A stretch of 64,000 bases of DNA from Coptis chinensis (lineage: Eukaryota > Streptophyta > Magnoliopsida > Ranunculales > Ranunculaceae), in the NCBI GenBank assembly GCA_015680905.1, contig CM027377.1:5294501-5358500 (forward strand), read 5' to 3'. Positions 6,346 through 43,581 of the stretch are shown here, piece after piece; the first letter of the stretch is position 1; each line of letters opens with the position of its first letter. The notes under the pieces are model-generated. The model was not told the DNA's origin, ran no database searches, and saw only the letters and a list, made by a program, of their open reading frames with translations. The translations under genes and the position numbers were made by a program.

Positions 6346-6377
6346 TTTTTTTATTTTTTTTTTATTATTATTTTTTT

Positions 6378-7570: not shown

Positions 7571-7799
7571 GATTTTATGGTTTCCAATTTGCCAATATAA
7601 AAACGTTTATCCAACAGTGAAAAATAAATGAAAAACAATAGTGGGTTTTGGTTTTAATTTTTTTCTTTATTTCCCCACTAATAAATCAATAGTGGAGTAG
7701 TGGACAATGACTGGATTATATTGTGGGGGGGCCCTTGGGCTACGGGGCCCTAAGCGGAGGCCTACTTTGCTATAAGGTTGAGCCGGCCCTGCGAATGTT

Positions 7800-9379
7800 C
7801 TTGTAGATTGTTCCTGTATTACATGCTCTGGTCTGTGTTGCTAGACCTTAAGTGCATATTTCTCCTTTTCTAATTCAGGTGTAAAAATTTGCCTTTTACG
7901 TCAGAGTTTGGTGCTACTAGTTGGCTGTTATGTGCTCTTGGACCTAATATAGACTATTGTGTGCTTGCTGTTGTTTTTGTGCGTGTGATCATTTTCATTC
8001 ATTTTTAGTACTTGAATGTCTTCAGCCTTCATGGTTACTGCTGTTAAGGTTGAAATTTAATTACTGTTTAGTGCTTTGAAAATCATGCTTGTTAGCTGCT
8101 TTCCTCGTGGAAAATTTCAATCGCTGTTTTGTAGGCTAGAGTGTTCAGCTACATTGAGCTTCATGGTGACATTTATAGTTGAGCTGTGCTAATTGATCTA
8201 ATTTTGCACTTTCTCCACTATAACTAACTCTTTTTATTAGCTATAGTACGCAGTAGTGCAGTACACAGGGTATGTTTTATTTTGAGTTTGAGTTAATGAA
8301 TTACTTCCATCAGTTGTTTAAACTATCAGGTGTGACATATATGCTCTGTTATTGAATCTAATCTGATGAAGGTATGCTTAGTGATCTCCTTCTTTATTGG
8401 ATGTATTATTTTGTATGATGTTGTTCTAGTGATTAGGTGCCCCCGATGTAATTTTTTTAGTCTGATACTTGTAGCGATTGAATCTTCTTGGTGTTGTTGA
8501 TAATGATGTCTGAGTTATAGATTGTTTTGAACATACACTTCTTGTAGTATAAATATTCCAATATTTATGACATTTTCTGACTTTTTTGGTTAGGTACTGC
8601 TCTGGTTGTTTTATTCCTTTCAGAACAGGGATGTAAGGAAGGCTCACCTGACGCTTTCTTCCAATATATAGAAAGACAAGGAACATGCGGCCACTCTCTA
8701 GATAAAACTGGAAATTTTTTTACCACCAATGTAAAAACCAGAGGCGTATTAGAAGGTCTGATGGTAAATACTGTATGCATTTGTTCTTGTGGTGCTCTTT
8801 AGGAATTAAATGACATACTGCCCTGTACAACAGAAGCTCTTTTCTTCAGTAGCCCATAATCCTCATAAACCACACTTTCTTGGTTATGTAAATATTATAA
8901 CAATGGATTGTTAGCCTTTCTTTTCAAGCTAAACAAATTAATTACTTAACGTGATGTTATGGATGATATCGAAGTAGCCTGAAGACGCCCTAAGCTTTAT
9001 ATTTAACTGTTACGTCTGCCAAATAGATGGGAAGGACTACCTATATTAGAAATCATGTGTTGACACTTGGACATAACTCATTAGGGCCACATCTCACATG
9101 AGGCAGACGTAACAGGTGAAGTTCTGACACTTGCAAATGTCTCAAAGCTCTATTTTCACTTGCGTGCTTATTTTGTTACTTTTGTTCCAGGTTATATACA
9201 AAGTCTGATGTTTTCTGACAGAGACAGTCAAATATTTATCTATCGATTGTAAGCTTAATAACAACGAACTTCACATTTCATATTTTTCCTCCTAACTAAG
9301 TGATACTGTTCTCAATCACAGACAACAAAAAGCATAACATCAAGCAAGTAAGAGATTTTAACAGATGGAGTGATCACAA
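7800..9379. other. Intergenic DNA downstream of GH81 copy A
   Basis: T-rich on the plus strand, without convincing coding frames. The small minus-strand frames near 8426-8780 have no recognisable domain. Bases 9132-9208 match 2612-2688. Otherwise I see nothing. Confidence 0.5.
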
Positions 9380-11495
9380 CTAATCATAATGTCTAAACAA
9401 GCTTAAAAAGAAATTTCCCAACCAGCTCCCTCCAGTTTGTGCTGCCTCTTTTACCTCACTTCTACTATGAATCCACCAGAGTAGATTAGAAAGTGAATTC
9501 CCATCATCATGCTCTTTCAAGATTTTGATCTTCTTCAGAGCCCTTTTTTTGTCGTAAACACCTTCCAATGCATAAACAAAGCCCTTCCATCCATCTCCAA
9601 CACCTTCTCGCCTCAATGCTGGCATTGTCCATTCTACCAGTTCTCTTGTAAAGTCACGATCAGAAAACACAACCTCAGAGATTGGCACTATTGGTAGTAG
9701 TTGTATCCCGAGCCTACACTCTTTCCATTCGGGAGGAGCAAACCAAAGTCCACTATCTCTTTTGTTGGCCCATACCATGCCAACAACTTTATTCGCCTTA
9801 GCAAACTCATCTTCATACATCCCTCCCCTTCCCTCACATGCCACCATGTTCGCATTGCTTCAATCTCGAATGCTGCAAGTGTTGATCCAATATCAGTAAC
9901 ACGAGCATCACCATAACTAAGTCCAAACAGGGCAGCAGCATAATATCCATTCACTGCCTCACTGGTACTTTCTTGATTCCGCCCATCCCCGAATTCAGTC
10001 ACTCCACCAGCCCATGAATGCAGCTTCCACAAATCAAAGTTTCTTAACCGTGGATAATTCGAATTAGCCTGCCTATCCAAGTTCATGAAATCAGCAATCA
10101 AGGAGTACGCTTGAGGTTTATACTTGCTACCCCATGCCGGATCAATCTTCGCAAGCACTGCAATACCATAAAGAAAGTATCCCAAATGGTAATGATGATC
10201 ATTATACACTCCAAACCCGAAATCAGCACCAGAATCCACAGCACCTTGTTTAGTCACTAAACCTCCCCACTTAGATTCATACAAGAATCCATTGCCACTT
10301 AAAGTCCCATCCAACCAAGGCTCAATCCTCGCCTTCAAGTACTTCTCAGCTCTCGGAATCACATCAGGACAAGAAACCTCCTCAGCAATCAAAGCAAACC
10401 TAGCTGCCCTAGCAATCAACTTCCCATAAAAGTAAGACGAACTAGTTGTTATTGGTGTATTCAGACTCTTAACATCTTTGCGAAGGGCAGAAACTATTTC
10501 AGGGATGGATTCTTCTTGTACTCCCCCAATCGAATGCCAAGTAACCGGAACCGGCTTAGTTTTCAACATCCATGAGTCTCCTACAACACCTACCAGATCT
10601 CCATCCACACTTTTGTACTTAAAATCCTTCAAAATAGACACACCCCCCTTGCTCTTTAGACAAAAGCTGAACATGAAGAGGATGGGCAAGTAAAAGAAGA
10701 TCCCCAATCCTTTCTTCTCCCACTTATATTCCAAAGAAAAGGGTTCCCCAAAACTGCTTCCCCACTAACTGGATAACAAGAACTATATTGATCCAGTACA
10801 GATTCATAACTGGGGTCAGAGTCCGGCAAGATTGCGAACCTAAGTGCACCAGAAAACCCACTAAAAGTGATGCTAGACAAACTAGAATCCAGATTCAATG
10901 GTGAAGATGAATACATAATCCATGTTTGGTTGTTGTTAAAGTGAATCTTATGCTTAGTCCCAAAACTATTTGATGAAATTGACAGAATGGCATGAATAGT
11001 TGATATGGAAATTTGAGTTGAACTACAAACTTCACAAGTAATATAAGGACTTCCTCTAACTAACAAGAAACGTAAACCAGGTGGAACATCTAAAGTAACA
11101 CTAAGATCATTAAAAGAAGAGATTTTGTGATCTTTTTTTACCTCACAATCTTTACCATTATTCACAGCTGAGATAGTGAGATCAGCTACAAAAACTTGGC
11201 ATATGAAAGCAGAAGTGAAGAAACGAGATGGGTATGAAACACTTAGGGAAGAGTTTGATGATTTGATGAGATATGGGTGAATGTATTCAGGTTGTTCAGC
11301 ATTGTTGAGTGCAAAGTTTTGGAAGAATGAGTTGGTTGGAAGAGGTGACGAGAGAAGATTTGGAGTGAAAAAACGAGATGGGTCTGGAAGAACTGTTGAA
11401 TGAACTAGTGGGAAAGTGAATGGTATAGTTAGAGCTGGTGGTGGATTCATTGTAGGGAAAGAGAGACGGGGTCTTTTTTCTTCTCGTGGGTTCAT
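9380..11495 (-). pseudogene. GH81 endo-1,3-beta-glucanase, frameshifted copy (copy A)
   Basis: Homologous over its whole length to the intact GH81 gene at 22537-24717; the family hydrolyses internal beta-1,3-glucan (callose or fungal wall glucan) linkages. Reading from 11495 the frame breaks at four single-base indels relative to the intact copy. One base is missing at about 10741-10755. One is missing at about 10700. One is inserted in a C-run near 10643-10650. One is missing near 9820-9832. Between breaks the protein is well conserved, including YNDHHYHLGYF and NQESTSEAVNGYY with the catalytic Asp and Glu motifs. The N-terminus starts MNPREEKRPR and lacks the basic leader of the intact copy. 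Most indels lie in or beside C/T runs, so sequencing error cannot be excluded. Confidence 0.85.
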
Positions 11496-14188
11496 TTGTA
11501 GAGAGGGTTTAAAGATGGAGATTCCCTTTTTTTATATTATTTGTATAATCTTATGATTTACGTCAGACTGCCTATTAGAGGTTTTAGCTTGGATGGCAAG
11601 TAATTCGTTAACTAGGAAACCTACTTCAGTTAGAGACACACTTCACTTAAATACTTAACTCGGAATAGAATAGAAATTAGAAACAAAATCCCTATATATT
11701 TGGAAGATTCCGTGCGTGAAAAATGGGAAAAAATATCCCCACAATACGAGTTTGTGTTGGAATGGTGATGAAGTGTTGTTTTAATGGCTGGCAGAGCTAT
11801 TATGTTAGGACTTTTGAAGGGGTTCACTTGTCTTAGTGGTGCTTTCATGATGCAAATATATCTTGTTGTTTATGGAAGCCATTCGAAATCTCTTATAGTA
11901 CTTATTGCCTGGACCACTGGTTTTGTTTTGTATCTTGGTTAAACCTACAGTCGCCTTTATTGAAGTAAATATATTGATTGTCTTTGCTTGTACTTTCCAT
12001 TTCTTGTAGTGGCGTTGTATGTATAGACAAATGATCTGGGTTGTAAACCCTTGTACTTGGTTAGCCAGTAGCTGAGATGACATAGAATAAATGTTCAACA
12101 GCAGCTCAGTTGTTTTATCTCTCAATCGAGGTGCTACTGTGGTCATTGATTTATACTTGGTACATGTAGAAACCGTGTAGAAATCGCATAAAAGGTGTGT
12201 AGGAACTAGGAACCTCCTCATACATAGCGTGTACAAACCATGTAGTTACAAGTAAGCTAGTCTTGTGATTTTCGTCTATATAACAAAGAAAAGCTCAATG
12301 TTGCAAAGTTGTGTATGTCACATTCGAAAATAGCTGCTTGTTTTTTTTTTCTTATCTTTTTTTTGTTTTTTTTGGTCTTGTCTGCTTCAATCTGCATCTT
12401 TGGATCTTCTTGCAGACTTCCTTCTCTAGATATTGAATAGCTAGGTGTTCTTAATAGTTTAGGAAAATATAAAGTGCAGAATAACATGAAGCAAACAATT
12501 TGCTTCCTTGGAGTTGACTCTATAGACACATAATGCAAGCGCTCCACATACACGAACAGACTTGATTGGGATCATTTTTTCGTAAGGTTCTGCAGGGTGC
12601 AGACTGCAGTCAGGCTATCCAAGAGACCAATCTCTGTCATCTTTACTCATTCTTTTTGGCAATACAGACAAAATGTAGAGATTAAGATGCATATATAGTT
12701 CTGATTTGGCTAATTGGTTTTAATGCTCGAGAAATGTAGTTCAAGGACATATATCACCTGATACAAAAATTGAACAAATGCTGGAAGGACACCAATATCT
12801 TATATTACCAAAGGCTTTGCTGCAAATGATGGGCATGGTGACTGATGATTTCCAGAGCATTTGAAACTCCAGTGTTTTGTTTTATTGATGGTCTCCTTGT
12901 TCCTTGGGTTTTGTTGTATATGGGGAGCTGGGGGAGCCTTTCTGAGAATGGATTAGGAAGACTTGCTCTCCAAAGAAGCGCATATGATCCACACTCGTTG
13001 ACAAACCAAAACCTTAATATCTATTATTTAACCCCCTTCTTCCTCTATCCACTTGCCAGTTACATGTCCCCAACAATTGGAAGATCAGGTCTGTTTGCTT
13101 TTCGTTGATGGCTTTTTCTCTTATGAAGGCACTATAATCTAGAAATGACTATCGAATTTATCTATGCAGGAAGCAGGGAATCTGGTGTACAAGGCCCAGA
13201 GAAAGAGATCATTACCTTGTGGAAAGGGTTTCAAAAAGCATGAACTCTGGGAGTCAAGAAGCTGGTGGTTGGATGTGAGTGCAGGAGTTTGCTGGATCCT
13301 ACTTCTCCGTCTAGCACTCAGTCCGGCTCTAGCTTCTTTTTTGTTTGTGATTGTCTTTATCTCAATGTGGTAGCACACCATAACGTAGCACATGAACATG
13401 CCTGTGAGCGCAGACGTGGGCAAACTACCAGTTGGTCTGCTGGTGTAATGAACTGCTGTCTGCTTACTTAGGGTGTTAATTTGTGCTTCCTCTGTTATCT
13501 ACTTATATGCTTTAAATTTTAAGTGATTATATCTTTTGCAACAAGGAAAAAGACGTGATTATTTCTTTTTAAAAATCTAATGGTGGACCTAGGGCTATAT
13601 TGTATTTGTAACTGATGATGCCCTCGAAGTACAACCTAAAATTGAACAATTACATGGAGGAATTCTGCAATGAGTTCTCATAGCATTAGGTGATTAAGAT
13701 CTTTTTCAGTTGGAGCATACTCAGTGAGGTAATTTACAAGGCATTTCCGCACATCACAAGACTTTCAACTAGAACTGGCTGTTTAACTGACATGCTTTGA
13801 TGCGAATTATTGACAGGCAATACTTCCAATTAATATATAAAGGCAAGCTCTTGAAAATAAATGGCCAGCATCCTTACTGAATATCTGATAATCTTGAATG
13901 CATACCCCTTCTCGGCACCACATAGTTACAGACGTACACAAACTGTAATCGGATCATTCTCATTTCTGAACCCAATAATTAGGATAAGTAGATAACTATG
14001 AATCAGCTCGTATTTACAAATAAAAGCTGAACCTATAAAGACAACATTCACTGGCATATGATCTTATTACAACTATTGCCGACAATAACGTTCAAGTATT
14101 CAATCAAAAGGACACAAGGTAAAAAGCCAGGATATTCATAGCATAATATGCTCCGATTCCTCCTCCTATCAGCATCAGAAATCTTGTC
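11496..14188. other. Intergenic DNA between GH81 copy A and the HACL exon
   Basis: A TATA-like run (TATAAAAAAAGGG on minus, about 11525-11537) lies just upstream of copy A. No gene is supported. The only open frame with protein-like character is 13164-13373. The sequence GGAAGATTCCGTGCGTG near 11700 recurs inverted near 15675-15690. The last ~150 bases before 14189 are probably 3' UTR of the HACL exon. Confidence 0.45.
13164..13373 (+). CDS. Possible small membrane protein or exon (weak)
   Basis: An open frame of 69 codons. It is basic at the N-terminus (KAQRKRSLPCGKGFKKH), has an acidic/Trp segment (ELWESRSWWLD), then a hydrophobic stretch of about 30 residues that could span a membrane. 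A splice-acceptor-like TATGCAG precedes GAAGCAGGG at the start. I do not recognise the family and the frame may be fortuitous. Confidence 0.2.
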   Translation: MQEAGNLVYKAQRKRSLPCGKGFKKHELWESRSWWLDVSAGVCWILLLRLALSPALASFLFVIVFISMW

Positions 14189-14503
14189 TCAGTTCTTGTG
14201 TTGCATTCTCCCACTTTCTGCACCAGCATAAGGATCAATGGTGACATTTATTACAGCTGGTTTCCGTGCAGAAAATGATTCCGCAAGCGCAAACTTGAGG
14301 TCTTCTGGAGTTCCAACAAGATAACCTTTGCCTCCAAAAGCTTCCATTACAGTATGATATGCTGCACCAGGTACAAAAGAAGTAGGGGCAGGATCATCTT
14401 TGTAAGGCCCAGTAATTTCTTCAGGGTTCCTCCGGTCACCTCCATACAGACCACCATTGTTAAAAACAATCACGACCACGGACAACTGATATCGTACTAA
14501 TGT
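14189..14503 (-). pseudogene. Orphan last exon of 2-hydroxyacyl-CoA lyase
   Basis: The exon starts after an acceptor (CTGCAG, 14504-14509) and reads TLVRYQLSVVVIVFNNGG, then YGGDRRNPEEITGPYKDDPA, and ends SGRMQHKN with a TGA stop. This is the C-terminal part of the thiamine-diphosphate-binding domain of plant 2-hydroxyacyl-CoA lyase (oxalyl-CoA decarboxylase-like), a peroxisomal enzyme that cleaves 2-hydroxyacyl-CoA. NNGG lies in the ThDP/Mg-binding region. I looked upstream (14504-15823 and beyond) for the preceding exon with the conserved GDS-G-F motif and did not find it; GH81 flanking DNA starts at about 15774. Either the rest of the gene is lost or this is a captured fragment. The exon itself is intact. 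Confidence 0.75.
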
Positions 14504-14509
14504 CTGCAG

Positions 14510-15823
14510 GAATCAATGAAAAGCAATTATCAGCACGAGAAAAGTTTGTTTATCAAGATGGACACAAAACTGTTATACTCCACTCAGTGACGAGTTTAGG
14601 AAAAGTAAAATATGGTCAGATGGAACTATAGAGGTAAACAAGCATACATTAAAAAATAAAATAAAAATGCTCTAACTAAAGACTGAATAATGAAAAATGG
14701 TCTTCTTATGACAGAAATGAGAGCTAAGACTCCTAAGAGTCTAACAGTTATAATGGTTTTCCTGAAAACTGAAAAAGCAGGATTGTTTACAATTTTAAGA
14801 GATGACGATGACCATATATCACAAGCTTATCCCAAGTTTACAAAGGAGGTCGGCAGTTGAGCAACACATACATTTCTCATATTAACCTTTCTGACGAAGA
14901 GATGAAAGGTGGCGGAGTAGCAATAAACAAAGGTTTTACTTTTCCAACATCGGGTAATCGAATGTCAAGAGAAAAGAAACTATACAACTACACAAGCAGA
15001 CATGCCACTCTAATACAAATATGAGAAGGAAGATAAATTACATTGAAGTTAGAGAAATTGAATACATTCGGAAAAGGCAAAAAAGATTGAAAGTTTCATT
15101 ATCAGTATATCACTAGTTAGAGTTTAGTGGGTGTATGGTGAAGGGCTAGAGGAGGTTGCAACAGTTTACTTTGATGTAGTTTTAGGGTCTGCACAACACA
15201 AAACATGATTTTTAGGATAATGACAAATTTGTAATTTTTTTTTTTTTTTGGGGTCTGCCCAACACAAAATGGGTTGTGCCCCTAGCGAGTACCTAACAAT
15301 GAAAATTTTGGATAGATATGAGTTGTTGATTACATTATTATATTGTCTTGGGTTGTTACTAGCTAATCAGTATTTTTTTTGCACTTAAGCTGTTATACGA
15401 CATTGTCTGGGAGGAATGAAAGCTGAAAAAAAACACAGCATTAGTTATGTATGTGTGGAACCTTCATTGATTTTTGTGGAAGCTTAGAGCCTTAGACAAG
15501 CTCGTCTCAAATATATAAAACTAACTAAAAAGGGCGTTAAGTGAACTACTCTGATTTGGCCTCATATTTGCTAGTGTTGGGGCGCAAGACATATGAGAAT
15601 AAGAGTCCGGGATTGGCAGCCTAATGCATTCAAGTTCAAGTTATCTTTCCATTTTTAGTTTCGAGAGTTTTATGTACACACGCACGGAATCTTCCTAACA
15701 TATAGGGATTTTACAAAGGTTTCTCACTCGAATCCAACCAACGCCATCCCCCCTGACCCTGTCACAGGATAACATCGTAGTCGAAAACAAACTGTAGAAA
15801 AGTAAGAACTGAAATAATGTGTT
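14510..15823. other. Noncoding DNA upstream of the HACL exon
   Basis: No further HACL exon is visible. A T-run lies near 15237-15250, and two similar GGGTCTGC-CAACACAAAA patches lie near 15186 and 15251. From about 15774 the DNA is homologous to 2933 onward, the GH81 3' flank. Confidence 0.5.
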
Positions 15824-15833
15824 CTCCATGATA
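15824..15833. repeat. Target-site duplication of the MULE, left copy
   Basis: CTCCATGATA, repeated exactly at 22413-22422. The related unoccupied site at 2982-2991 is CTCCGTGATA. Confidence 0.9.
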
Positions 15834-15937
15834 CACTTAATTGGCATAGTATACAACGTAGTATACATGTTTTTGCACTTTGGATACTATACAATTTTCT
15901 AGGCACTAAACTACATTGTACTATCAAAAAAATTTCA
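15834..15937 (+). repeat. MULE left terminal inverted repeat
   Basis: Starts CACTTAATTGGCATAGTATA; inverted partner at 22309-22412. Similarity fades after an ATTTCA segment. Confidence 0.9.
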
Positions 15938-16402
15938 GGTTCTGCACTGGGCAAATATTCCGGCCAAAATCTGCTGACGTGGCCAAATTTGGAGGTTTTA
16001 TAATCCTATGTGGAGACATGTCATTTTATTTATTATAAAAAACGTGTGTTTACATTTGCCACACAAGCTGAATAGCCAACAAGCATTTCCCGCATTTTCC
16101 CTCTTAACTTTTCCCTCTCTTTTGATTAGCGCCCAAAAATTGGAGATTTCATCAAAAACCTAATTGACCAAAATTTGTTGTCTTTAAGATTAAATTGTCT
16201 AATTCACACAAACCCTAACCTATATAAAACACAGAAAACCCTAACCTTCTTTGCTGGCAATCAGGAATCTAGTCCATATTAAAGTAAGTTAATGTTTTTT
16301 ATTCTTAAGTTAATGTTTTTTATATTGTTGTCGGCTATTATACATGAATATTATACTATGATTGTTGTTATATTATTGATATATTGTTGCTAAATTACTG
16401 CA

Positions 16403-19400
16403 GTGGAAACAGTTGTAATTAATCTCCATCATGGGGGTTCATTTGTTACTAGTCCAGACCTTCGTTACCTTGGTGGTAGGATAGAGTGCTTGGACAATAT
16501 TGATCCGGATAGGTTTGGATATTTTGATTTAAAATCAATGGTGGAGGAGTTGGGGTATTATAATGTGAATAAAATGCACTATGGTCAAGCCAGCAGTAAG
16601 GGTTATATGTTAATTTTTGATGATACTAGTATTATGAAAATGCCGCAAAAAAGCTAGGGTGGGAATAGAATTGAGGTATACATTGAACATGATGTTGAGG
16701 TGGATTCAAGTGAACAAAATGTTGTGCATGATATTGAAGTAGTTGAAGTTAGAGAATGGAGAAGACATTGAGATACAAACTTCGATTCTGAGTGATAAGG
16801 TTTGTATTTCGATGATGATAATGAGTCGATGAGGAAGATTTTAGGTTTGAGGATTTGCCCTGAATTGTCCGATAATGATGAGGAGCTTATTGAAGTTAGG
16901 AAAATGATAGAAGAAAGGAAAAACGAAAAAGACTTGAAAGAATGAAATCAATTTGGGATGATGGTGATCATGAACCTGAAGTGAATGGTACTGGAGCTGA
17001 GCAAGCAATGAATGCTGAAGGTGATGATGATGTTGAAGCAATGAACACTAGTAATCGGTGTTTGAAGCAGTGGATGGGCTTTATGTTGATGAAGGCAACA
17101 ATGTGTTTATTAGTGATAATGAAGTTGACCATGGGGATGTTGATAGTGACTATATAGATTCAAGTGATTATGAAAGTCCTGATAATCGATGAGGATGATG
17201 GTATTAGAAAAACCAAGAAGTTTAGGTACCCTAGTTTTGATCCCAAGATCGATGTATTTCATGTGCAACCAAGACTAGGGATGGTGTTTGCATCCCCTAA
17301 TCAGCTCAAAGATTGTTTGAAGGATTTTGCAGTTGCTCATGGGTACCAACTTTGGTTGAAGTTAAACAACCGAGAAAGAATCCTTGCATTATGTCTTTGA
17401 GGATTGCCCATTTAGACTATATGCTAGTTGGATGACAAGCAAGAGAAGCTTCCGATAAAGTCCTATATAGAAGAACATAAGTGTTCAAGGATATTTGATG
17501 TCCGTGATTGCTAACCGTAAATGGATTGCTAGGATATATGGAGAGAAGATACTGAAGTATCCTAAAATGAAATTGAAGGATTTGAAAGAGCATATTATGC
17601 ACAAGTTTAAGCTTGATGTGACATTGTGTCAGTGTAGCAGAGCTAAGCGCAAAGTTCTAGATGCAAAGGGAAAATAGGTTGGGTCGGTGTATATGCAAAG
17701 TTGTGGGACTACCAATTTGAACTAAGAAGGAGTAATCCCGGAGTACTATTGAGATAGAATTATTTCATCCTACACCTAATGAACCTGCAGTGTTCAAGCG
17801 CATGTATATAGGGTTTGCTGCACTTATAAATGCATGGAAGAGTGGTTGCAGACCAATTATTGGAGTTGATGGATGTTTCTTGAAGGGGTACTGCAAGGGG
17901 GAGCTATTGGCAGCCATTGGTAGAGATGCAAACAATCAAATGTTCCCAATAGCATGGGCAGTTGTAGAAGTGGAAAACTCAGATAGTTGGATGTGGTTTT
18001 TGGATTTGCTGATGCAAGACTTGGGTTATAGTGAGGGTCAGGGTCTTGGGTTGACTATTATTAGTGACCAGCAAAAGGGTCTTGTACAAGTGATAAAAGA
18101 CTATTTGCCTTTTGGTCGAAAGCAATGAAATTGTGCCGCATATGTATATGCCAATTTCAAGAAGACATTCCCCGGTTTACGATAAGTTTCGCTTTGGAAG
18201 GCTAGCAAATGTGGGACTCCTCAAGAGTTTGAACAAAACATGGATGAAATGAAAAGTATTCGAGGATGCATATCACCACTGCATGGTGAAGCAAAACCCA
18301 AGACAAAGGTCAAGAGCTTTTTTAGCATGTTTCCTTGTTCGATTCTGCTGACAACAACATATACGCGAGACATTTAACTCAACAATAGTGGAAGCAAGGG
18401 AAAAGAACATCATAGAAATGCTTGAGGATATCGACAGCAAGTAATGGCTAGAATGCAAAAGAAGATTGCAAAGAATGGCTAATCGAAGACCGCCTTTTGT
18501 CCCATTATAATGCAAAAGTTAGAAAAAAAAAAAAAGAAGATCATAGGTTTTGGGTTGCACATTACAATGGAAGCAACTCATTTGAGGCCGGAAGAACAAA
18601 TATGAGGCCTTTATCGCGGATGCAACCGCTATGAGATGCAAATGAATGTGGGAAATGAATGGCATCCCATGTCCACATGCCATTTCAGTTATGTATTATC
18701 TCAACATTGATCCATCAAGAAAGATGTATCTAGTTGGTATAGTGTGGCAGAGTACAAGAAGATATATAGTCATGTGTTACAGCCTTTGAATGGTCAAAAC
18801 ATGTGGCATAGGACAAAAAGGCACGCTATTTTGCCTCCCATAGCAAGGAGGATGCCCGCGCACTCCGAAGAAGAATAGAAGGAAGGAGAAGGAGTAGCAA
18901 TGGGAACTGGAAGAGTGACACAAGTGGGAACTGGAAGAGTGACGTAAGACAAGGCTTCTCATCAACTATGCATGCAGAAGCGGTAGGAAAATGCATTGTT
19001 CTAGATGCAATAGTGAGGAACACAACATAAGGTCATGCAAGTCTACGACCCACCACTTAGAAAGAAACAAGTGAGTATGCATTTGTCTTTTACTTTTATA
19101 AGTTATTTTTACAAGTGGTTTTGATTGTATTTAAATATGTTAATATAATATTAGGTGAGGAAGAAGAAAGGAGAAGTGAATAATGTCCCAGCTGAGGATG
19201 CAACTAATGAAGGGCCAACTAATGTAACAGCTGAGAATGGCAGTAATGAAGGTAGGTGTACAAAAGGCAGAGGTACAAGGGGTAGAGGTCAAAGAGGGAG
19301 AGGAAGAAGGGGAACCAAATTCCTATAGCTTTGGAGTATACACTAGTCCTGAAGGAGAAACTTACATCAATGTGAGTCTTCTAATATATTTAATGTATTT

Positions 19401-20150
19401 TTCATTTATTATATTTTGTGCATTATCTTATTCATAGTGTATTATGTGTAGACTGCTTCAAGATTGACACCCTTGAATTCAAATGAACCATCTCCAAGTA
19501 ATGAAGGGCCAAGTACTTTAACAGATGAGAGTGCAACTAATCAGCAACCAAGTACAAGGGGTAGAGGTACAAGGGGTAAAGGTACAAGGGCTAGGGGTGA
19601 AAGAGGAAGAGGAAGAGGAAGCAATGAGCCAATTACTGTTCCACTTGGTGTAAACACTAATACTATTGAAAGAGAAGCTGACATCAATGTGAGTGTTTTA
19701 GTTTAGTTTTTTCAATAAATTAGTTTGAGTGCATTGGCTTATTCATTGTGCATGACTGTGTAGACTGCTTCAAGATTAGCTGTTCCACTTGCACCAAGAG
19801 TAACTGTGGTCAATGGGTGATGGAGTACACATATTACCTCCAACCGAAGAAAATATTTTCATGTAAGTTATTACTTTAAGTTTTTTATTCATTTAAGTGT
19901 CTGCAATTTAAAATTTAGTTTAGTTTATGTCTTTATTCTTTAGTTTAGTTTGGTAAGTTTTTATTAATTATGCTTTATTTCTTATATAGCCACCACAAGA
20001 AAGGAGAGTTGTACAAAGGAAGACTTCAAGTGCAAGTGATCAAGTTGGAAGTAGTCAAGGGTCAAATAATACACCACTTGGAACTCAGGAATCAAGTGCT
20101 GCAAAGAGTACAAAAGGCATCCCACCTAATTATTTGGTAAAATTGATCTA
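16403..20150 (+). pseudogene. MULE transposase (MURA type), broken by frameshifts
   Basis: Pieces in family order: a plant N-terminal domain at 16403-16657 (FVTSPDLRYLGGRIECLD), acidic linkers, a MuDR DNA-binding domain at 17200-17396 (FASPNQLKDCLKDFAVAHGY), and the MULE DDE domain at about 17790-18128. The DDE part shows PIIGVDGCFLKGYCKGELL with the first catalytic Asp, and LTIISDQQKGL with the second. A SWIM-like segment follows near 18640-18700 (WEMNGIPCPHAISVMYYL), then a CX2CX4HX4C zinc knuckle near 18988-19045 (CSRCNSEEHNIRSC). At least five frameshifts or stops separate the pieces, so no full protein is made. The N-terminal piece opens with GTG after a CAG acceptor, so its true start is in a lost or upstream exon. 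Confidence 0.88.
19170..19762 (+). repeat. Tandemly duplicated RGR-repeat exon in the MULE
   Basis: Two ~310-bp units, about 19150-19450 and 19451-19762. Each carries a NEGP-type segment, an Arg/Gly repeat (GRGTRGRGQRGRGRR; TRGRGTRGKGTRARGERGRG), and a closing ETYIN- or EADIN-like segment with a GTGAGT donor. Introns end in TAG before ACTGCTTCAAGATT at about 19452 and again at 19763. This is the likely basic C-terminal tail of the transposase or a fused cargo protein. Confidence 0.65.
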
Positions 20151-20394
20151 GCTCATTTTGGTGTTTTAAGAGTGTATTAATGGTTTCTGTTTCAAACTTG
20201 TTGCTTTAATGAACAAGTGTCACGTTTTGTATATTTCTCTCAAATATGGTCATGCAAAGAACAAGTGTCATATTTTGAATGTAAGAAAACAGTTTTTTTT
20301 TTTGGTCAAAGAGAATGCTTTAATGAACATATTGAAAACTGATTTGACTAATGTCTTGTAAATAGTGTTATAGTTTTAATTTTGGACTTTATAG

Positions 20395-20634
20395 TTGGTG
20401 ATAATTAATGGTGTTTGGTATGCAATCTATAAAACCATCCTAGAGGGTAGAGGGTTGTATGCAATAGGTTTAGATTCGAAAAACAATGCCCAAGGGTCGA
20501 TGATCCATGTTGAGGGTAAGGGAGAACCCAAAACTTTTGAAAGAGCATTGGTTGCAGTTTGGGACCTCATCAAAACAAAGGAGGGGAGAGAGTGTTCATG
20601 GAGGTTGTTTATGAGAATGATGTTATTAATTTGA
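20395..20634 (+). other. Uncharacterised open frame in the MULE
   Basis: About 79 open codons (NGVWYAIYKTILEGRGLYAI, later FERALVAVWDLIKTKEG) without a family I recognise. It may be a downstream exon of the same MULE transcript or a captured fragment. Frames after 20634 are broken. Confidence 0.3.
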
Positions 20635-21666
20635 AGCCTTGTGATGACCGTGGAAGGGTGTGCATCATTGAGTCAAGGGAAGAGGGAGAGTCAAGTCGAC
20701 CTAGAGAACCAAGTCCGGTTCCACCCGATTCAACATAAGCTCGAGAAATCGCCATAAGGTTACCAGCCAGCAGAAAATGAAGCAAAGCGAGGAGGGAATC
20801 AAAGACCAACACCATCCAAGCAAAGAAGTTCAAGAGGTTATCCTGGGTCTTTCTGCTGCTGCAGCCTTATCCCGGTTTTGTATGAAGTCCAAGAAGTTTA
20901 AGAAGTCTAAGTCTAAGAAGTGAACCCGATGTTTGATGTGTTGTTTGATGTGTTGAAGTGTTGAAGTGAACCGATGTTAGGTTTATCTAGGCAAAGTATA
21001 TGGTGTATTGTGTCTTGTTCTTGTTTCTATGTTTTGATGTTTTTTTAGCTTGGTTGTCTTGTTCTATGTTAAATTATCAAGTCTTTTTTTTTTTGATAAA
21101 CTTTCCATATTATATATTAAGCCTTAACATGGATTAGGGACAATATATTAAGTTTAGAGTTTGTCTCCACCATACACATTGGCAGAGCTGTGTAGTGTAG
21201 TGATGTTTAACCCTGATACAGAAACTTAAAGCCACAGGTTTTTGTAACATGGTTACACAGGGTTTTCTGGTTTTTTTAAAGACCAGGCTACACAGGGTTT
21301 CATTCACAGAAACTTAAAGATACAGAACATTACAGAAACCAGGCCATACAGAAACTTAATTCCATTTTCATTCCAACTCTACAAGCCACGTAAAACTTAA
21401 AGATACGTAAAACCGGATAACTCTACAACTTCATTCCATTTTCATTTTCATTCAACTCATTACATTACAAAACCATGTTACGTAACATTACGTAAAACAC
21501 GTAAAACCGTGAGATTCAACTCATTACATTACAAAACCATGTTACGAAACATTACGTAAACACGTAATCCGTGAGAACTCTATAATTTCATTCCATTTTC
21601 ATTCAACTCATTACATTACAAAACCATGTTACGTAACATTACGTAAAACACAATGCACTTCACTTA

Positions 21667-22092
21667 TTAACCAAACAAATACTTGTAAAGCAAGAATACA
21701 ATGACCAAAATCAAACAAGTTTTCTTCGCCTTATAATTCGGCATTCCAAAGTCGTCACCTTTTTCTTCAACTCGTTTCTTCTTCTTCTCTTCGGAGTAAA
21801 CAATTACATTCAATTTTCCTTGCAACTCCACCTTTTTCATGTTAGCTTCCTCCAAACTTTCTTTCAATTCGTCAATCTCTTTGTACAAATCAATGAACCT
21901 TTGCTTTGTTGATTTTGGAACTTTGTCCTCCCAATCAAAGTAGCCACAATCGTGAGTTTTGTAATTTGTACAACAAAAAATCTTCTTCCCAAATTTCCAA
22001 CAGGTCTTTGACATTACTAAAGGAGATGGCTCTCCACAAAAAGCATGAATGATTTGAATTGATAGAGGTGGACGACATTTTGAACTATTCAA
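21667..22092 (-). CDS. MULE-borne zf-GRF-like, coiled-coil, membrane-anchored small protein
   Basis: An intact 141-codon single-exon frame on the strand opposite the transposase, starting 217 bases inside the right TIR. Residues ~1-55 resemble the plant GRF-type zinc finger: FCGEPSPL, then FGKKIFCCTNY, then HDCGYFDWEDK. The first Cys of the usual C-x-CG pair is absent (HAFCGEP), so zinc binding may be altered. Residues ~60-105 are Glu/Lys-rich and likely coiled coil (LYKEIDELKESLEEANMKK). The last ~18 residues (TCLILVIVFLLYKYLFG) look like a tail anchor. GRF fingers bind nucleic acids in other proteins; the role here is unknown. An intact frame inside an otherwise decayed element is notable. 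Confidence 0.7.
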   Translation of the reverse strand: MNSSKCRPPLSIQIIHAFCGEPSPLVMSKTCWKFGKKIFCCTNYKTHDCGYFDWEDKVPKSTKQRFIDLYKEIDELKESLEEANMKKVELQGKLNVIVYSEEKKKKRVEEKGDDFGMPNYKAKKTCLILVIVFLLYKYLFG

Positions 22093-22308
22093 ATTGATAG
22101 TTAGGGTTTCAAATTGAGAGTTAGGGTTTTCAAATTGAGGAAGAAGGTTAAACTTGCAATTGAGAGTTAGTGTTTCAAGTTTTCAAATTGAGGTACCACC
22201 AAGTCACGTGTATTTCAAAAATGCCACATGTCTAGATGGCCGGACACGTGGCATAGGCCGGTGGCCACATCAGCAAAAATTGACTGGAAATACTTCCAAG
22301 TCGCAAAG

Positions 22309-22412
22309 TGAAATTTTGTTGATAGTACAATGTAGTTTAGTGCCTAGAAAATTGTATAGTATCCAAAGTGCAAAAACATGTATAGTACATTGTATACTAT
22401 GCCAATAAAGTG
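22309..22412 (-). repeat. MULE right terminal inverted repeat
   Basis: Read on the minus strand it starts CACTTTATTGGCATAGTATA and pairs with 15834-15937. Confidence 0.9.
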
Positions 22413-22422
22413 CTCCATGATA
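22413..22422. repeat. Target-site duplication of the MULE, right copy
   Basis: CTCCATGATA, identical to 15824-15833. Confidence 0.9.
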
Positions 22423-22536
22423 CTAACTGAGTATTATAACTTGGGAGTTTATTCTATCATAGTTTTCCAAGCAGCTTATAAATCACAAAACCAAAAAAAG
22501 GCAACATAACAAAAAACATAGTATTGATTCAAATTT

Positions 22537-24717
22537 TTAGTGATCACTGTAGTGTCTAAACCAGCAGTATCTCCCTCCATCATGTCCTTCCTCCTTTCCA
22601 GCACTTCTACTATGAATCCACCACAACATATTCGAAAGTGAATTCCCATCATCATGCCCATTCAAGTTTCTGATTTTCTCCAATGCACCTTCCTTATCAT
22701 AAACTCCTTGTAGTGCATAAACGAACCCCTTCCATCCTTCTCCAACCCCTTCTCTTCCCAAAGCTGGCAATGCCCAATTCACCAACTCTCTAGCAAACCC
22801 AGTGTCCGAGAACAAATTCTCGGTAATTGGCAGCAATGGAAGTAACTGAATTCCAAGCCTACACTCCTTCCACGCAGGAGGAGCAAACCAAAGACCACTA
22901 TCCCTCTTGGTAGACCATAACACACCAACAACTCTATTCTCTTTGCTGAATTCATCCTCGTATATTCCCTCCCCTTCTCTCACATGCCACCATGTTTGTG
23001 CCGCTTGAATCTCCAAAGCAGCTAGTGTTGACCCTATCGCTACAAGATGAGTATCACCATAGCTTAATCCCATTAAGGCAGCTGAATAGTAACCATTCAC
23101 AGCCTCACTAGTACTCTCTTGATTACGCCCATCAGCAAATTCAGTCAGTCCTCCAGCCCACGAATGCAGCTTCCACAAATCAAAGTTCCTCAACCGTGGA
23201 TAATGTGAATTTCCCCGCCTACCTAAGTTCATGAAATCTGCCATCATTGAATAAGCTTGAGACCTATACTTCCTTCCCCATGCCGGGTCAATCTTAGCAA
23301 GCACAGCAATACCGTAAAGAAAGTATCCTAGATGGTAATGGTGATCATTATACACCCCGAATCCAAAATCAGCTCCAGAATCCAACGAACCTTGTTTAGT
23401 AACTATTCCTCCCCATTTAGGATCATACAAGAAACCATTGCCATTAAAACTCCCATCCAACCAAGGCTCAATAGACTCCTTTAAAAACTTCTTAACAGTT
23501 GGAATAACGTCGGGATATGATACCTCCTCTGCAATCAGAGCAAACCTAGCAGCTCTAGCAATCAATTTACCGTAAAAGTACGATGAACTCGTCGCTATGG
23601 GAGTTAGACCCTCGACGTCTTTGCAAAGAGCAGAAACAACCTCATCAAAGGATTCTTCTTCTATACCGCCAATCGAATGCCAAGTAACCGAAATGGGATG
23701 CATCTTCAATACCCAAGAGTCTCCTACAACTCCTACAAGATCCCCATCCATACTTTTGTACTTAAAATCCTCTAAAATAGATACATTCCCATGGTCTTTC
23801 GACAAAAGCCGAAGATGAAGAGGATGGGCAAGTAAAAGAAGATCACCCCATCCTTTCTTCTCCCATTTATATTCCAAAGAAAACGGATTGTTAAAAACTG
23901 CCTCCCCTTTCACTGGATAACAACAACTAAACCGATCGAGTATCGATTCATAATAGCCATTAGAATCCGGTAAGATTGCAAACCTGAGTACACCAGAAAA
24001 TTCACTAGTTGTAATGCTAGACATACCAGAAGTGAAACTCAACGGTGAAGATGAATATAATATCCATGTTTGGTTGTTGTTCATTTTAATGGTGTGCTTA
24101 GTTTGATTACTGTTTGAAGACACAGAGAGAATGGCATGAATGGTTGATATGTAAATTGGGGTAGGACTAGAAACAGCACATGTTATAAAAGGACTACCTC
24201 GTACTAAAAAGAAACGTAGATTTGGTGGGATGTCTAAAGTAACACTAAGATCACTAAATGATGAGACTTTGTGATCGTGGGCCGCCTCATTTTGAGGAGA
24301 TGAGATGGTGAGGTCAGCAATGAAGATTTGGTAAATGAAAGCAGTTGTGACAAAACGAGATGGGTGGCAAAGAGTAAGTGAAGATTGAGATGATTTGACG
24401 ATGTAAGGGTGTATGTATTCAGGTTGGTCACCATTTTTGAGAACAAAGTTTTGGAAGAATGAGTTGGTGGGAAGAGGTGACGAGAGAAGATTTGGAGAGA
24501 AAAAACGAGATGGGTCTGGGAGTATTGTTGATTGTATGTGTGGGAAGAGAAATGGGGTGGCAGACGATGAAGACATGGTGGGTTGAGGTGGTGGAGATGG
24601 AGGAGGGGTCGAGGAAGGAGAGAAAGAGTCTTGCTGTGATGGCTTTGAAGGTCTTCGGCGTTTTTTAAAGGCCTTGGAGACTATGGTTTTGACTCTTCGT
24701 TTGAGTTTTTTCAACAT
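22537..24717 (-). CDS. Endo-1,3-beta-glucanase, glycoside hydrolase family 81
   Basis: A complete 726-residue single-exon frame. GH81 enzymes hydrolyse internal beta-1,3-glucosidic bonds by inversion; in plants they are linked to callose turnover and attack on fungal walls (family knowledge). An N-terminal basic and Pro/Ser-rich leader (residues 1-55) has no clear signal peptide. The N-terminal beta-domain spans about 57-310 and includes PTNSFFQNF and SPFITC. The (alpha/alpha)6 catalytic part spans about 375-715, with YNDHHYHLGYF at 456-466 (catalytic Asp region), HSWAGG at 518-523 and NQESTSEAVN at 532-541 (catalytic Glu region). The ending LSNMLWWIHSRS is typical. The start at 24717 could instead be Met48, which aligns better with copy A. 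Its 3' flank is interrupted by the MULE. Confidence 0.93.
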   Translation of the reverse strand: MLKKLKRRVKTIVSKAFKKRRRPSKPSQQDSFSPSSTPPPSPPPQPTMSSSSATPFLFPHIQSTILPDPSRFFSPNLLSSPLPTNSFFQNFVLKNGDQPEYIHPYIVKSSQSSLTLCHPSRFVTTAFIYQIFIADLTISSPQNEAAHDHKVSSFSDLSVTLDIPPNLRFFLVRGSPFITCAVSSPTPIYISTIHAILSVSSNSNQTKHTIKMNNNQTWILYSSSPLSFTSGMSSITTSEFSGVLRFAILPDSNGYYESILDRFSCCYPVKGEAVFNNPFSLEYKWEKKGWGDLLLLAHPLHLRLLSKDHGNVSILEDFKYKSMDGDLVGVVGDSWVLKMHPISVTWHSIGGIEEESFDEVVSALCKDVEGLTPIATSSSYFYGKLIARAARFALIAEEVSYPDVIPTVKKFLKESIEPWLDGSFNGNGFLYDPKWGGIVTKQGSLDSGADFGFGVYNDHHYHLGYFLYGIAVLAKIDPAWGRKYRSQAYSMMADFMNLGRRGNSHYPRLRNFDLWKLHSWAGGLTEFADGRNQESTSEAVNGYYSAALMGLSYGDTHLVAIGSTLAALEIQAAQTWWHVREGEGIYEDEFSKENRVVGVLWSTKRDSGLWFAPPAWKECRLGIQLLPLLPITENLFSDTGFARELVNWALPALGREGVGEGWKGFVYALQGVYDKEGALEKIRNLNGHDDGNSLSNMLWWIHSRSAGKEEGHDGGRYCWFRHYSDH

Positions 24718-26040
24718 ATTTTTGATGAGGTGGAATGACTTGGTTGGTGCTAATTTTTGGTTAGGTGTTTGAGTTGATGAATGTTGGACACTTGGACCTC
24801 AATAAGGGGGATGAATTTGTAGAATTTAAGACTTGAGATGCACAATATAAGGAGAGATGTATCAACTATAAACTCATTGAAGAGACATGTAGGAAGAAGA
24901 TATGTATGAACTAGACATTCTTTGAAGTGTGGGAAGAATGATGTTGGGAAGAAGGTTGGATTGAAAGGAAAGTTGAGAGATGGGATTTTGGTATCTGGGG
25001 GCATGAGTATGTGAGTTTGCAAGTTATGTATAGGGAATTTGATTAGTTGAGTGAGGGAGGGGATATGTTAATGGAGTAGGTATGTTTGGTAAGCAAGGGA
25101 TAGAATTTAATTCTTTTTCAATCAAGGGTTGAGGGATTAGTTATAATTTGAATTGGATATAGATTTGTAATGGAGATGAATGTTGCCATGTTGAAAGTTG
25201 CTACTATGGTTATGCATCTATAAACAGACTTAATAGGCATGTAGGTGGTGGATTCTGGAAGGTACGATAGCTGGAAAAGAAAGAAAAGCATAGTGTGAAG
25301 GAAATAATTCTAGTACTGAGTTTTTTGTATGACTTCAGAACTGAACTAGGTAGAGTTCTGTACAACTGTACACAGTACACGTACAAATCAATCATTTCAT
25401 CAATTTTTTGCAATAATATACGAAATCAAAGTTTCAATATGTTTTGTTGCAACTTGCAAGAGTTGGCACTCATTGATAATCTAAACTCTTATTCACTTGC
25501 AAGAACCACAGTACTCTGGTAAGTCAATGTATTACATAAACTCGACAAGTGATCAAAACATAAAACTCCTGTTTAGTTGCAAGTTGCAACAAACATACAT
25601 TACCTGCTTCCATAATAATTTAGCCTAAAAAGTACCTGAAAGAGACTATAACAGTTCCACTAATCAACTATCAAGTATCAACTACTGGCATTACTCTTGC
25701 AATAGGGGTGGTTGTTATCCTAATTCCTAATCCACTTACTCATTATCCAAGCAAACCTGAACCTTAAGGAAGTAGTTGTAAATGGCATTACAGGAATAGA
25801 AGGTTGCTACCAAGCCACCTATAAAAACGAGATAAGAAGCAAAAGGTTAGTTTTTCAAATGGTGCAGTCTAACCCCAGCATAGGAAAAAAGGCCATGAGA
25901 AAGTCATATTATATAATCAGATTTATAAGGAACAATAGATTATAAAAAAGTTACACTGAATAAGATAGAGACATGATACAAACTTTGATCCATAGTGTTT
26001 ATACGCATACTTTTAGTACGGGTTGTGGATTACCTTACAA
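24718..26040. other. Upstream region of the intact GH81 gene
   Basis: Noncoding. A TATA-like CCTTATATTG (minus strand, about 24842-24851) lies ~125 bases before the start codon and could be the promoter core. Other open frames are short and featureless. Confidence 0.4.
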
Positions 26041-27035
26041 TCACTCAACATCATATCCTTTCTCTTGGAGGTCTGAGAGGACCTCATTCCTCATTCTAAA
26101 CCACATCTTCAGAGATTCTTTTTCAAACTTCTTTGATTGCAATTTCTTCTGAAAATTATCAGAATCTTCCCCAGTTTCAATTAGTCCTTTGGGTCCAATG
26201 GTAGTGCCAATTGCGCCTCCGCTAGCGATAAATGCATCAGTAGCCTCTGTGTCACCTGGATATGGAAATCTTCGGCGCTCATACAAGTGCGCCATCTCCT
26301 TTTCTTCCTAAAATAACAAGTGTATGTTTAGCCTTTCGACAACTGCATTTCTATATCTAATTTTCAGAACAAACTAACTAATATAGACTCTGGATTATAA
26401 CCATTCAAGTTAAGTTCGTAAAAGTTGAGGCCGAGCTGCACCACTGCTGGCACTCCCATGCTACTCTCGTCAAATATGGCTTTTGCATTTGTTTCTTTTT
26501 TTGTTCTCCCCAACCATTTTCTGCCCTTCTAAACTTTGCTTCCTAAACATAGGTTTCATTGGAAATATCTGACCAATCTCCCCTCTTATAGTACTAATAT
26601 GGTATTTCATATCTTCGACAAGTCCAAAAAGATTATGAGTCTTAAATACTCTCCCTATTTCAAAACAAAGCTAAGGGCTTCCACACTGTTTGATTAAAAT
26701 TTATATGCATATGTGTAAACTAAGGTTTCTTGAACTTGACAACAAAAAAATGATTTGCCTATAAAAAAACGAAAGATACCTTGGGTTTGGGCTTAAGCGT
26801 CATCCAACCAAGGGGAGATGTCTCATTCCACCACCAAGCCACACCAAAGCATGTGTATGTACATAGTAGAGCTTTTCCTATTTGCTTCCAGAAATAGTGA
26901 TCTTCCTTTCCCAATCCCACTTTCCTGATAACAAAAACAATGTATCTAACTAGTAAAAAAAAAATAGCATAATTTATGTTAAAGCTCTAAGTCCACTTAC
27001 TTCAGAAACCTTTCTGCATTAAATGACTTCGACAT
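26041..27035 (-). CDS. Conserved small plant protein, three exons (possibly a plant-specific complex I subunit)
   Basis: Exons 27001-27035, 26780-26924 and 26041-26307 join in phase into 148 residues. It starts MSKSFNAERFLKKVGLGKED. A Trp-rich, probably membrane-embedded stretch follows (CTYTCFGVAWWWNETSPLGW), then a Lys/Pro turn. The hydrophilic tail holds HLYERRRFPYPGD, IGTTIGPKGLIETGED and a charged C-terminus ending EKGYDVE. All splice sites are GT-AG. The architecture recalls plant-specific mitochondrial complex I small subunits (the P1 type), but I recall that family only loosely, so the function is tentative. The 5' UTR appears to have its own intron (acceptor TTGCAG just upstream of the ATG, likely donor near 28276) that contains the hAT element at 27183-28215. 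Confidence 0.8.
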
Positions 27036-27182
27036 TTAACAAGCCTGCAACCAAAACAAAACTTCTGAGTGAGGAATTTCGTCAAACATTTGAGACACGT
27101 TTACCAACACAATGTGTAGACTAAACCGGAAGACATCACCAATACTTAAGTGTTGGTAATGAGAAGAAGATGCAATGCAAAT

Positions 27183-28215
27183 CAGTGGCGGAGCCAGGGG
27201 GGTCCCAGGGTACACCCTGGTGCACCCTCAAATTTCCTTAACAAAATATATATACTTCACTACAAACTTTTGCTTGGTCAGTGACAAAAAAGAAAGACCA
27301 ACATCTCTTTTAGTAATGTAAGAGGAAAACATGTTTAAAATAAGAAAAAACTAGAGCTAGTGAATGAGGGAGAGTTGAGTTGGCAGACCTGAATCTGATC
27401 GTGCCTCATTTTCTCAATGAGGAAGATGATGACATCATCTTTCTTTTAAATCAAGTCTTGAGTTGGGTAGCCCGCCCATATCTTACGCCCATATATATCA
27501 AGTCTTAAGCCTATACAACTGTTAAAAGTTCATGGACCCTACTAGAATGTAATTTCTTTCGGCCCACATAGCATTAAATCATATTCGGGCTTTATTTCAT
27601 TTTGACCGATCACACTCAAGCATACTAACTATCCAACCCATTTACTAGAATAATAATAAAAAAAAAATAAAAGCCAACAAGTAAAAAAAATAAAAGGAAA
27701 ATATCTTCTTTACAATTATTAATTACTCTACTTAAAGATATCTCGTGGACTCATTTTACTATGGAGGAGCATGAAGAGCGTATACGTATTGTATTGAGGT
27801 ATTGCTAGACCAGAAGTTGTACGCTAAGTTCAGCTCACGCTTTAAGATTTGTAGGAATGACGCAGAAATAAAGTAGAATCTATTTGTTGTCGATTTGGAT
27901 TCTATAAAAAAAAAAAAATCAGAGCGTGATAGTTACTCCTAGGAAGTACAGTAGATGTGAGTTTTGATCTAATACTTCCAAATTTAAAATTTTGTTACCT
28001 AAACTATAATATGATTTTGTAATTGATAACATACACTACAAAAAATTTGTTGTTTGTATAACAGTATTAAAAAAACAAAATAAAACGATAGACTCACAAA
28101 TGTTAAACTTAAGAAAAAAACAAGAAAAACGCGTATATGTTTTAATTGAATTTGCGCTGAAAAATTTGTAGTGATAATCGGCTCACCCTGGAATCAATTC
28201 CTGGCTCCGCCACTG
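27183..28215. mobile_element. Non-autonomous hAT element in a 5' UTR intron
   Basis: Perfect terminal inverted repeats CAGTGGCGGAGCCAGG / CCTGGCTCCGCCACTG and an exact 8-bp target duplication ATGCAAAT (27175-27182, 28216-28223). It is 1033 bp, AT-rich inside, with no transposase. Confidence 0.93.
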
Positions 28216-28459
28216 ATGCAAATAATAAAACCACTTAAAAAATACACAGAATTATAGAGAAGAATTGAATTACCAGAATGCAACAGGGGAAAACACCAAC
28301 GAAAATGAGGAATCGGCTTAATTGACGACCCCCTTGCACGATGGACACGACGCCAGCCAGGCCTACGTTTGTGGAATTTCGTGATATCAATTGATTTTTC
28401 AGAGTGTCGGCATTTAAACTACAGAAATGTTTTTGGTATCCCTAAAGTTTGATTATGTT

Positions 28460-28847
28460 GGGCTGTCAATGGGCCGGGCCAGGCCCAAAGCCCGATTGAA
28501 TCCGAACTTATATGACAGATTGAATCCGAACTTATAAGATAGGGACTTGTCCGATAAGACTATTGAGCCAGTTATGGACATATCCCGTCCGACCCGATAA
28601 CGGCCCAGTTCGAAAACTAAGATTATTTTTTTAGTTTTTCAAATAAGTACTATTAAATTTGTAACTATTAGTATACATAAAATGTTAAAAGGTTTGATGG
28701 ATTAGTGTTGTAGTGCCACATATAAAACTTGGGTTGGAGTCTTACTGCTCAAGTCCGGCCGGACTTAGACTTTCTAAATGTAAATATAATTTGGACAGGA
28801 CTTGGACATAGGTGAGTCCTGTTCAAATCCGGCCCGTTGACAGCCCT
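28460..28847. mobile_element. Small hAT-like MITE
   Basis: Inverted ends GGGCTGTCAATGGGCCGGGCC-like on the left (from about 28460) and GGCCCGTTGACAGCCC on the right (ending about 28846). Flanks GATTATGT and AATTACGT form an imperfect 8-bp duplication. The interior repeats GAATCCGAACTTAT twice. Confidence 0.65.
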
Positions 28848-29325
28848 AATTACGTAACACTTTTCTGTCGACAGATTTCAGGGGCCACAAATAAGGCAAG
28901 TTTAGCTGCAAATGTCCACATGCGTCCATGACTATGACTATTGATTATTACGGAAACGCAACGAGTTACATTTCACTTGTAAATTCTTCAGAGAGAAGTT
29001 TTTTTAGATGCACTTTTGGACCAAAAACTTTATCCTCCTCTCCATGCTTTTTTCTTAAACGAACGCACTTTGCTAGATTCGTTCCCCAATAGTTAGGATT
29101 TAGGAGCGAATACGATACTATGTGTATCAGAGCATCTCTAAGAGATTGTATAGCAAGATCCCTCGAAAAATACATAAGATCTCACCAAAGGCACTATTAC
29201 AACCAGCCGTTTTTGCCACAAAACTAAAGTGCATGTTTGTATGGTCCTATGGAAAGGTGCCACTAGGTTCAGACTTTAACACAATCCACTCGTTATAGTC
29301 GCAGGTGAGTAAGGTTCCAAAAGAT
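28848..29325. other. Upstream region of the Cys-rich gene
   Basis: No gene supported. A 69-codon minus-strand frame at 28966-29175 has no recognisable domain. A donor-like CAGGTGAGT at 29302-29310 hints at a spliced 5' leader. Confidence 0.35.
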
Positions 29326-29670
29326 ATGAGAAGAAAGGTTTCTTCCTCTTCTTCTCATTGTTCGTCCCATTCTTCCGTGAAGAAAACTTATCAAACTGAG
29401 TGTTGTTACCAAGCGACTGAATGTGGTATTAGTGTCTGTGCGTTGTGCATATGTTGTCCATTAACCATCTTATGGTGCTGTGTGAAATTTCCTTGCAAAG
29501 TTGCGTGGCAAATTGGGAAACGTTTGATGGATTCAAATTGTTGTAGATCGGACAGCATGAGAGTCATTTCTGCATCAACATCATTTTCAGATACAGGTAG
29601 TGAAGACTACTCGAGAACTAAAGTTGGTCGACGAATTCAGGTACCAGAAAGACAGAAGGCATATCATTAA
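29326..29670 (+). CDS. Cysteine-rich small membrane protein
   Basis: The ATG at 29326 gives 114 residues. A Ser/His/basic N-terminus (MRRKVSSSSSHCSSHSSVKK) precedes a dense Cys segment (TECCYQATECGISVCALCIC) and a hydrophobic stretch continuing CCPLTILWCCVKFPCKVAW, then a basic GKRL and a polar tail (SFSDTGSEDYSRTKV). The in-frame GTG at 29305 overlaps a perfect donor-like CAGGTGAGT, so the ATG is preferred. The layout CCP-x-IL...K-x-P-x-K...KRL also occurs in the protein at 56470-56931. Such plant proteins are uncharacterised; Cys palmitoylation or metal binding is possible but unproven. Confidence 0.7.
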   Translation: MRRKVSSSSSHCSSHSSVKKTYQTECCYQATECGISVCALCICCPLTILWCCVKFPCKVAWQIGKRLMDSNCCRSDSMRVISASTSFSDTGSEDYSRTKVGRRIQVPERQKAYH

Positions 29671-31700: not shown

Positions 31701-31733
31701 TTGATAATAAATAATATGAAAGTAAGGGGCCGG

Positions 31734-31826: not shown

Positions 31827-31849
31827 GAACACACATACAACAACACATT

Positions 31850-43550: not shown

Positions 43551-43581
43551 TGTAGTAATTATGTATTTTGCATTAGGATGT

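Follow-up and report, generated by a model that had tools for sequence, protein, structure and literature searches.

The 64-kb window analysed here, a 64,000-nucleotide stretch of the Coptis chinensis genome (C1:5294501-5358500 of its own 935.6-Mb assembly, G000), contains an intact GH81 gene whose stop codon lies 124 bp from a MULE, counting the target-site duplication (TSD). A second GH81 locus is found at 9426-11399 and is 79% identical. Farther from the element lies a short piece of a GH81 3' end in which the same target is uninterrupted. The window also spans the junction between two large tandem blocks, which we call U1 and U2, with the element residing in U1 (Table 1).

Table 1. Features of the locus, in window positions; the strand is left empty where none is assigned.
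Feature	Positions	Strand	Remarks
Block U1, part inside the window	1..42433		U2 starts at 42436
GH81 3'-end fragment, target uninterrupted	2936..3399	-	CTCCGTGATA at 2982-2991
Left flank common to the empty U2 twin gene	15736..15833		98 sites, 1 difference
Left TSD CTCCATGATA	15824..15833		exact match with 22413-22422
Left TIR arm (repeat tool)	15827..15937	+	7 bases within TSD; 94% complementary to 22309-22419
MULE element, 6579 bp	15834..22412	+	broken reading frames in this copy; multi-copy family in G000
MULE transposase domain fragment (PF10551)	17790..18128	+	Pfam E 1e-12
GRF zinc-ribbon ORF near right TIR	21667..22092	-	E 1e-4, below Pfam cut-off; frame disturbed in this copy
Right TIR arm (repeat tool)	22309..22419	-	7 bases within TSD; pairs with 15827-15937
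Right TSD CTCCATGATA	22413..22422		exact match with 15824-15833
Intact GH81 gene, 726 aa	22537..24717	-	ORF; Pfam GH81 N and C domains
Block U2, left part	42436..64000		42436-47467 matches C1:5274106-5279178 at 95%

Borders of the insertion and its unoccupied counterparts

The element is bordered by an exact 10-bp TSD, CTCCATGATA, which falls within the 9-11 bp of MULEs and occurs on either strand of the window only at the two ends of the insertion. Both this duplication and the length of the element are as given by the first-pass annotation, which had also put the TIRs at about 104 bp; the arms do pair, over a slightly greater length of 111 nt at 94%, and are thus the long TIRs of a MULE. When one TSD and both joined flanks were aligned to window 2935-3410, as that annotation had proposed, 458 of 478 positions matched, with 6 gap columns (left arm separately 55/57, right arm 412/431). 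The flanks therefore run continuously through the GH81 fragment, and this unoccupied paralogue defines the borders of the insertion, as had been claimed. Within the TSD, a single base distinguishes the occupied locus from the fragment, CTCC[A/G]TGATA. The TSD, the flank match and the family-wide ends and TSDs described below exclude chance.

A search of G000 with window 2590-3750 recovered the GH81 piece at 95-97% identity at C1:5366791 and C1:5398673, as well as the right flank of the occupied locus. The stretches that were read hold three unoccupied copies of the target, namely the window fragment, a copy of this fragment in U2 (A'), and a full-length GH81 twin in U2 whose 3' flank carries a single CTCCATGATA and no element. 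Each has one target copy, continuous flanks and no footprint, which is the structure of a RESite. Cut-and-paste elements can excise, and the fragment and the U2 gene could once have been occupied and then have lost the MULE in this way. However, to leave all three sites free of a footprint and with one target copy each, several independent precise excisions would have been required, or one excision preceding both duplications and then a second insertion at the identical base; we find such a history hardly credible. The unoccupied copies are probably RESites that never held the element, and not scars of excision; we include this in the preferred explanation given below.

The fragment is situated inside a patchwork of unrelated pieces at window 2610-3700. 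It begins with 79 bp that resemble (97%) the 3' flank of the second GH81 gene, followed by about 245 bp from a dispersed repeat and by the GH81 3' piece itself; the last 250 bp or so match, at 82%, the surroundings of an endonuclease-domain ORF on C4, which we read as LINE-like. The patchwork looks like template-switch filler.

The MULE family and its disagreement at CAG/CTG

Searching G000 with the left TIR, in which 40 of 154 candidates were scored, returned at least 40 matches; some of these pair up as opposite ends of a single element, as happens for the window copy. From these matches 20 further stretches were chosen; 18 hold both TIRs (all but L021 and L024) and together with the window copy make a set of 19 elements. 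Sixteen of the 18 begin exactly with CACTTAATTGGC and end exactly with GCCAATAAAGTG, L009 being off-consensus at its start and L026 at its end. TSDs of 9 or 10 bp are perfect in 14 of the 19 elements and carry one mismatch in three; no convincing TSD was found for L009 and L022. L022 is a full-length copy with both ends present, for which a recombinant origin or an assembly join is possible. A megablast search of the element against a plasmid collection gave no match.

The MULE transposase domain is recognizable in the window copy and reaches E 3.3e-17 in L022, and Pfam finds MULE, DBD_Tnp_Mut and SWIM domains in relatives. No intact transposase gene, which autonomy would require, is present in the window copy, where there are stops and frame changes; these broken frames are possibly consensus error. 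The ORF near the right TIR has a homologue in L017 that matches the GRF domain above the Pfam cut-off (E 1.3e-9); 8 of the 18 aligned copies keep the ORF open with no frame change (L018 gave no match). By eye, the middle of its protein is coiled-coil-like and the tail hydrophobic. Omega for this ORF was 0.71 at shared sites and 0.93 at private sites; for it and two transposase stretches the values were 0.71-0.76 and 0.93-1.05, respectively, with no significant difference between shared and private sites in any of the three (Fisher p 0.65 for the GRF ORF, then 0.14 and 0.40). No title or abstract in a limited literature collection linked GRF zinc fingers to MULEs.

Divergence is unevenly distributed along the MULE copies. 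Long stretches of identity are broken by patches of mixed substitutions and indels, which recur at the same places in many copies with differing content and hold most of the raw divergence and broken frames. Disagreement up to 3 bases from the centre of a CAG/CTG was enriched 4.25-fold relative to elsewhere (first 5000 consensus columns), which put CAG/CTG at the top of 32 trinucleotide classes; none of 704 circular shifts reached this value. Across 1872 such windows in the family, 950 were unchanged and 922 were altered, by a length change in 510, two or more substitutions in 191, one other substitution in 149 and a plain C>T or G>A change in 72. CAG/CTG is a symmetrical CHG context, which is methylated in plant transposons, and deamination there is expected to appear as C>T/G>A change.

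The MULE family and one LTR pair (3.11; reached by 0/533 shifts) show strong enrichment, and the repeat-rich U1-U2 segment at 34700-42433 a weak one (1.39; 27/512). Five low-divergence duplicated segments gave ratios of 0.29, 1.00, 0.31, 1.81 and 0.51, none of them significant; the 1.81, from the segment GH81-1, was reached by 62 of 523 shifts. A ratio of 1.73 in segment 4720-6000 was also not significant (102/612). Masking of CHG/CG sites and gap patches reduced the differences in the repeat-rich segment from 493/7561 to 12/2272, similar to the other segments.

It could be argued that the broken frames and the 4-6% divergence of the MULE copies reflect real decay of an old family and not sequence error. 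Raw K2P distances between the window copy and 17 others are 3.8-6.6% (2.4-7.7% over all pairs of 18 copies, L018 dropped), most copies have stops or frame changes, and the 72 windows with plain C>T/G>A are as deamination predicts. The weak excess in the repeat-rich segment and the ratios of 1.81 and 1.73, though not significant, point the same way. However, decay of this kind is hard to reconcile with the 510 altered windows that change length and the 191 with multiple substitutions, with an enrichment that no circular shift matched, with the ratios of the five low-divergence segments, and with the effect of masking on the repeat-rich segment. We therefore regard real decay as rather improbable. 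The apparent decay would instead be largely consensus error at methylated CHG sites, with the proviso that the sequencing platform of G000 may not be nanopore.

Nanopore consensus errors at methylated positions, indels included, have been documented in bacteria (PMC12506013), and the available excerpts of literature on nanopore errors at plant CHG sites, including PMC7501810, contained no such statement for plants. Two readings follow that we hold, jointly, in even balance: that the CAG/CTG patches are a base-calling imprint of CHG methylation in a finished assembly, and that the element is a two-gene MULE with the GRF gene in the place of mudrB. If the former is true, error patterns by themselves could reveal silencing, and silenced transposons could be recognized, and their 'decay' discounted, without methylation data. 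Many 'dead' plant transposons in long-read assemblies would then perhaps be less broken than they appear.

Tandem blocks, clocks and the order of events

U2 was found by reading 60 kb downstream of the window. U1 spans C1:5274106-5336933 and U2 spans C1:5336936-5417918, in tandem and head to tail, with the junction narrowed to window 42433/42436 using small extra stretches and a genome search. Within U2, window 55779-61804 matches upstream C1 at 99.2-99.5%. In the assembly, there are thus two head-to-tail copies with one junction, as in a tandem duplication. No long homology was found at the junction, and no N occurs in the 64-kb window or in the 60 kb downstream. The insertion and deletion differences between the blocks include the MULE and an LTR element.

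Several repeats were noted in and around the blocks. An LTR-type element at C1:5377790-5381674 (L036/L037) is in U2 and absent from U1; its ends are identical at 547 of 622 positions, and their differences are indel-rich patches enriched at CAG/CTG. Window 47463-51300 is a high-copy dispersed repeat, matched nearly in full at 89-92% by at least 26 of the 33 candidates scored, and window 6365-7568 is an approximately 400-bp tandem repeat whose units are 86-89% identical.

Across seven aligned segments, which omit the tandem repeat at 6000-7600 and non-aligning stretches, U1 and U2 differ at 74 of 18645 masked sites. This divergence of 0.40% overall lies within the range of ordinary heterozygosity. 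The blocks may therefore be two haplotypes of one locus misplaced in tandem by the assembler, in which case the MULE is heterozygous and the 'empty twin' is simply the other allele; the insertion and deletion differences, MULE and LTR element included, and a junction without long homology would fit this as well. The lack of any N and a single head-to-tail junction inside a chromosome-scale contig argue against such a misplacement, which we consider a serious but somewhat unlikely alternative. Were it true, the order deduced for the fragment would still hold and the insertion would be a heterozygous polymorphism. It would leave most of the preferred explanation standing, and the odds of the two are not mutually exclusive.

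Dating by TIR divergence was rejected. Differences between the left and right arms at TIR positions 6, 24, 106 and 107 are fixed or nearly so in the 19 copies, so that this divergence is inherited and is no insertion clock. Raw substitutions and private sites (36/6328) were set aside as clustered noise, as was a FastTree branch of 0.018. The locus thus carries a warning: neither TIR divergence nor raw divergence among copies can serve as a clock here, as the arms differ family-wide and many differences among copies track CHG-type context. Of the 17 copies compared with the window copy, L014 is the closest, differing from it at 8/3830 isolated-difference sites and 14/3759 masked sites; this low masked divergence marks the family as young. 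An attempt to rank the insertion against the block duplication by such distances failed. Since the 0.37% between the window copy and L014 and the 0.40% between U1 and U2 are alike (Fisher p = 1), only the empty twin orders the two events.

The relative order can be read from the target itself. The two fragments and the two genes were compared over 434 columns of a four-way alignment (window 2936-3370), omitting window 3371-3410, where the fragment differs from A' by a small indel patch and looks locally garbled. At site 2986 the two fragments have G, and the empty U2 gene and each TSD of the occupied copy have A; sites 3081 and 3090 divide fragments from genes in the same way. The remaining differences are private to one copy, except for the three-state column 3062; several of those private to the U2 gene cluster at 3060-3072. 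Because fragments and genes are divided by the A/G split, the split between fragment and gene is older than the block duplication, and because the twin in U2 is empty and the MULE is in U1 only, the insertion probably came after the blocks split. We infer that the fragment arose first, the blocks were duplicated next and the element inserted last. The suggestion from the first-pass annotation that the fragment separated before the insertion is supported by the three shared sites together with the empty twin. Its alternative, that the two histories differ, applies only insofar as the A/G difference predates the insertion and is otherwise not needed.

Therefore, we favor, with a probability of roughly three in four, transposition of the MULE into one of two nearly identical tandem GH81 loci in this order. 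An approximately 465-bp 3' piece of this GH81 gene would first have been copied about 13 kb away (element excluded) into the patchwork, and the entire region would then have been duplicated in tandem to give U1 and U2. Finally, an element belonging to a young, multi-copy MULE family would have entered the 3' flank of the U1 GH81 gene only, by the usual Mutator route. A staggered cut followed by repair that forms the TSD is established for Mutator; here, transposase acting on the TIRs would have cut the target in this manner, and repair would have produced the 10-bp TSD (9-10 bp family-wide). Against this explanation, the placement of the fragment before the block duplication depends on only three shared sites, which gene conversion could imitate, and two of the 19 copies have no convincing TSD. 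The locus yields a relative chronology from one assembly.

Comparison with known systems

An insertion beside a gene for a plant cell-wall enzyme is ordinary transposon biology, of a known kind. Similar to MuDR/Mutator and plant MULEs, the window family has TIRs of about 100 bp, a TSD of 9-10 bp, and a transposase with DBD_Tnp_Mut, MULE and SWIM domains that reads inward from one TIR. In one 2.8-kb member (L018:489-3298), which has a perfect 9-bp TSD, these TIRs enclose protein-kinase fragments, and we take this member to be comparable to Pack-MULEs. The window copy differs from Pack-MULEs in that it carries transposase and showed no captured host gene.

In MuDR, the second gene is mudrB, next to TIRB (PMC8224964). 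The window family may differ in this respect, as its ORF reading inward from the other TIR codes for a GRF zinc-ribbon protein. The use of RESites for MULEs is well established, for example in MuTAnT, where an insertion-free paralogue reveals the TSD and the insertion gap (PMC4486113), as it does here. Unlike the MuTAnT-type RESites described there, the GH81 locus offers three unoccupied copies and a fixed variant within the target, which together give the relative order of events.
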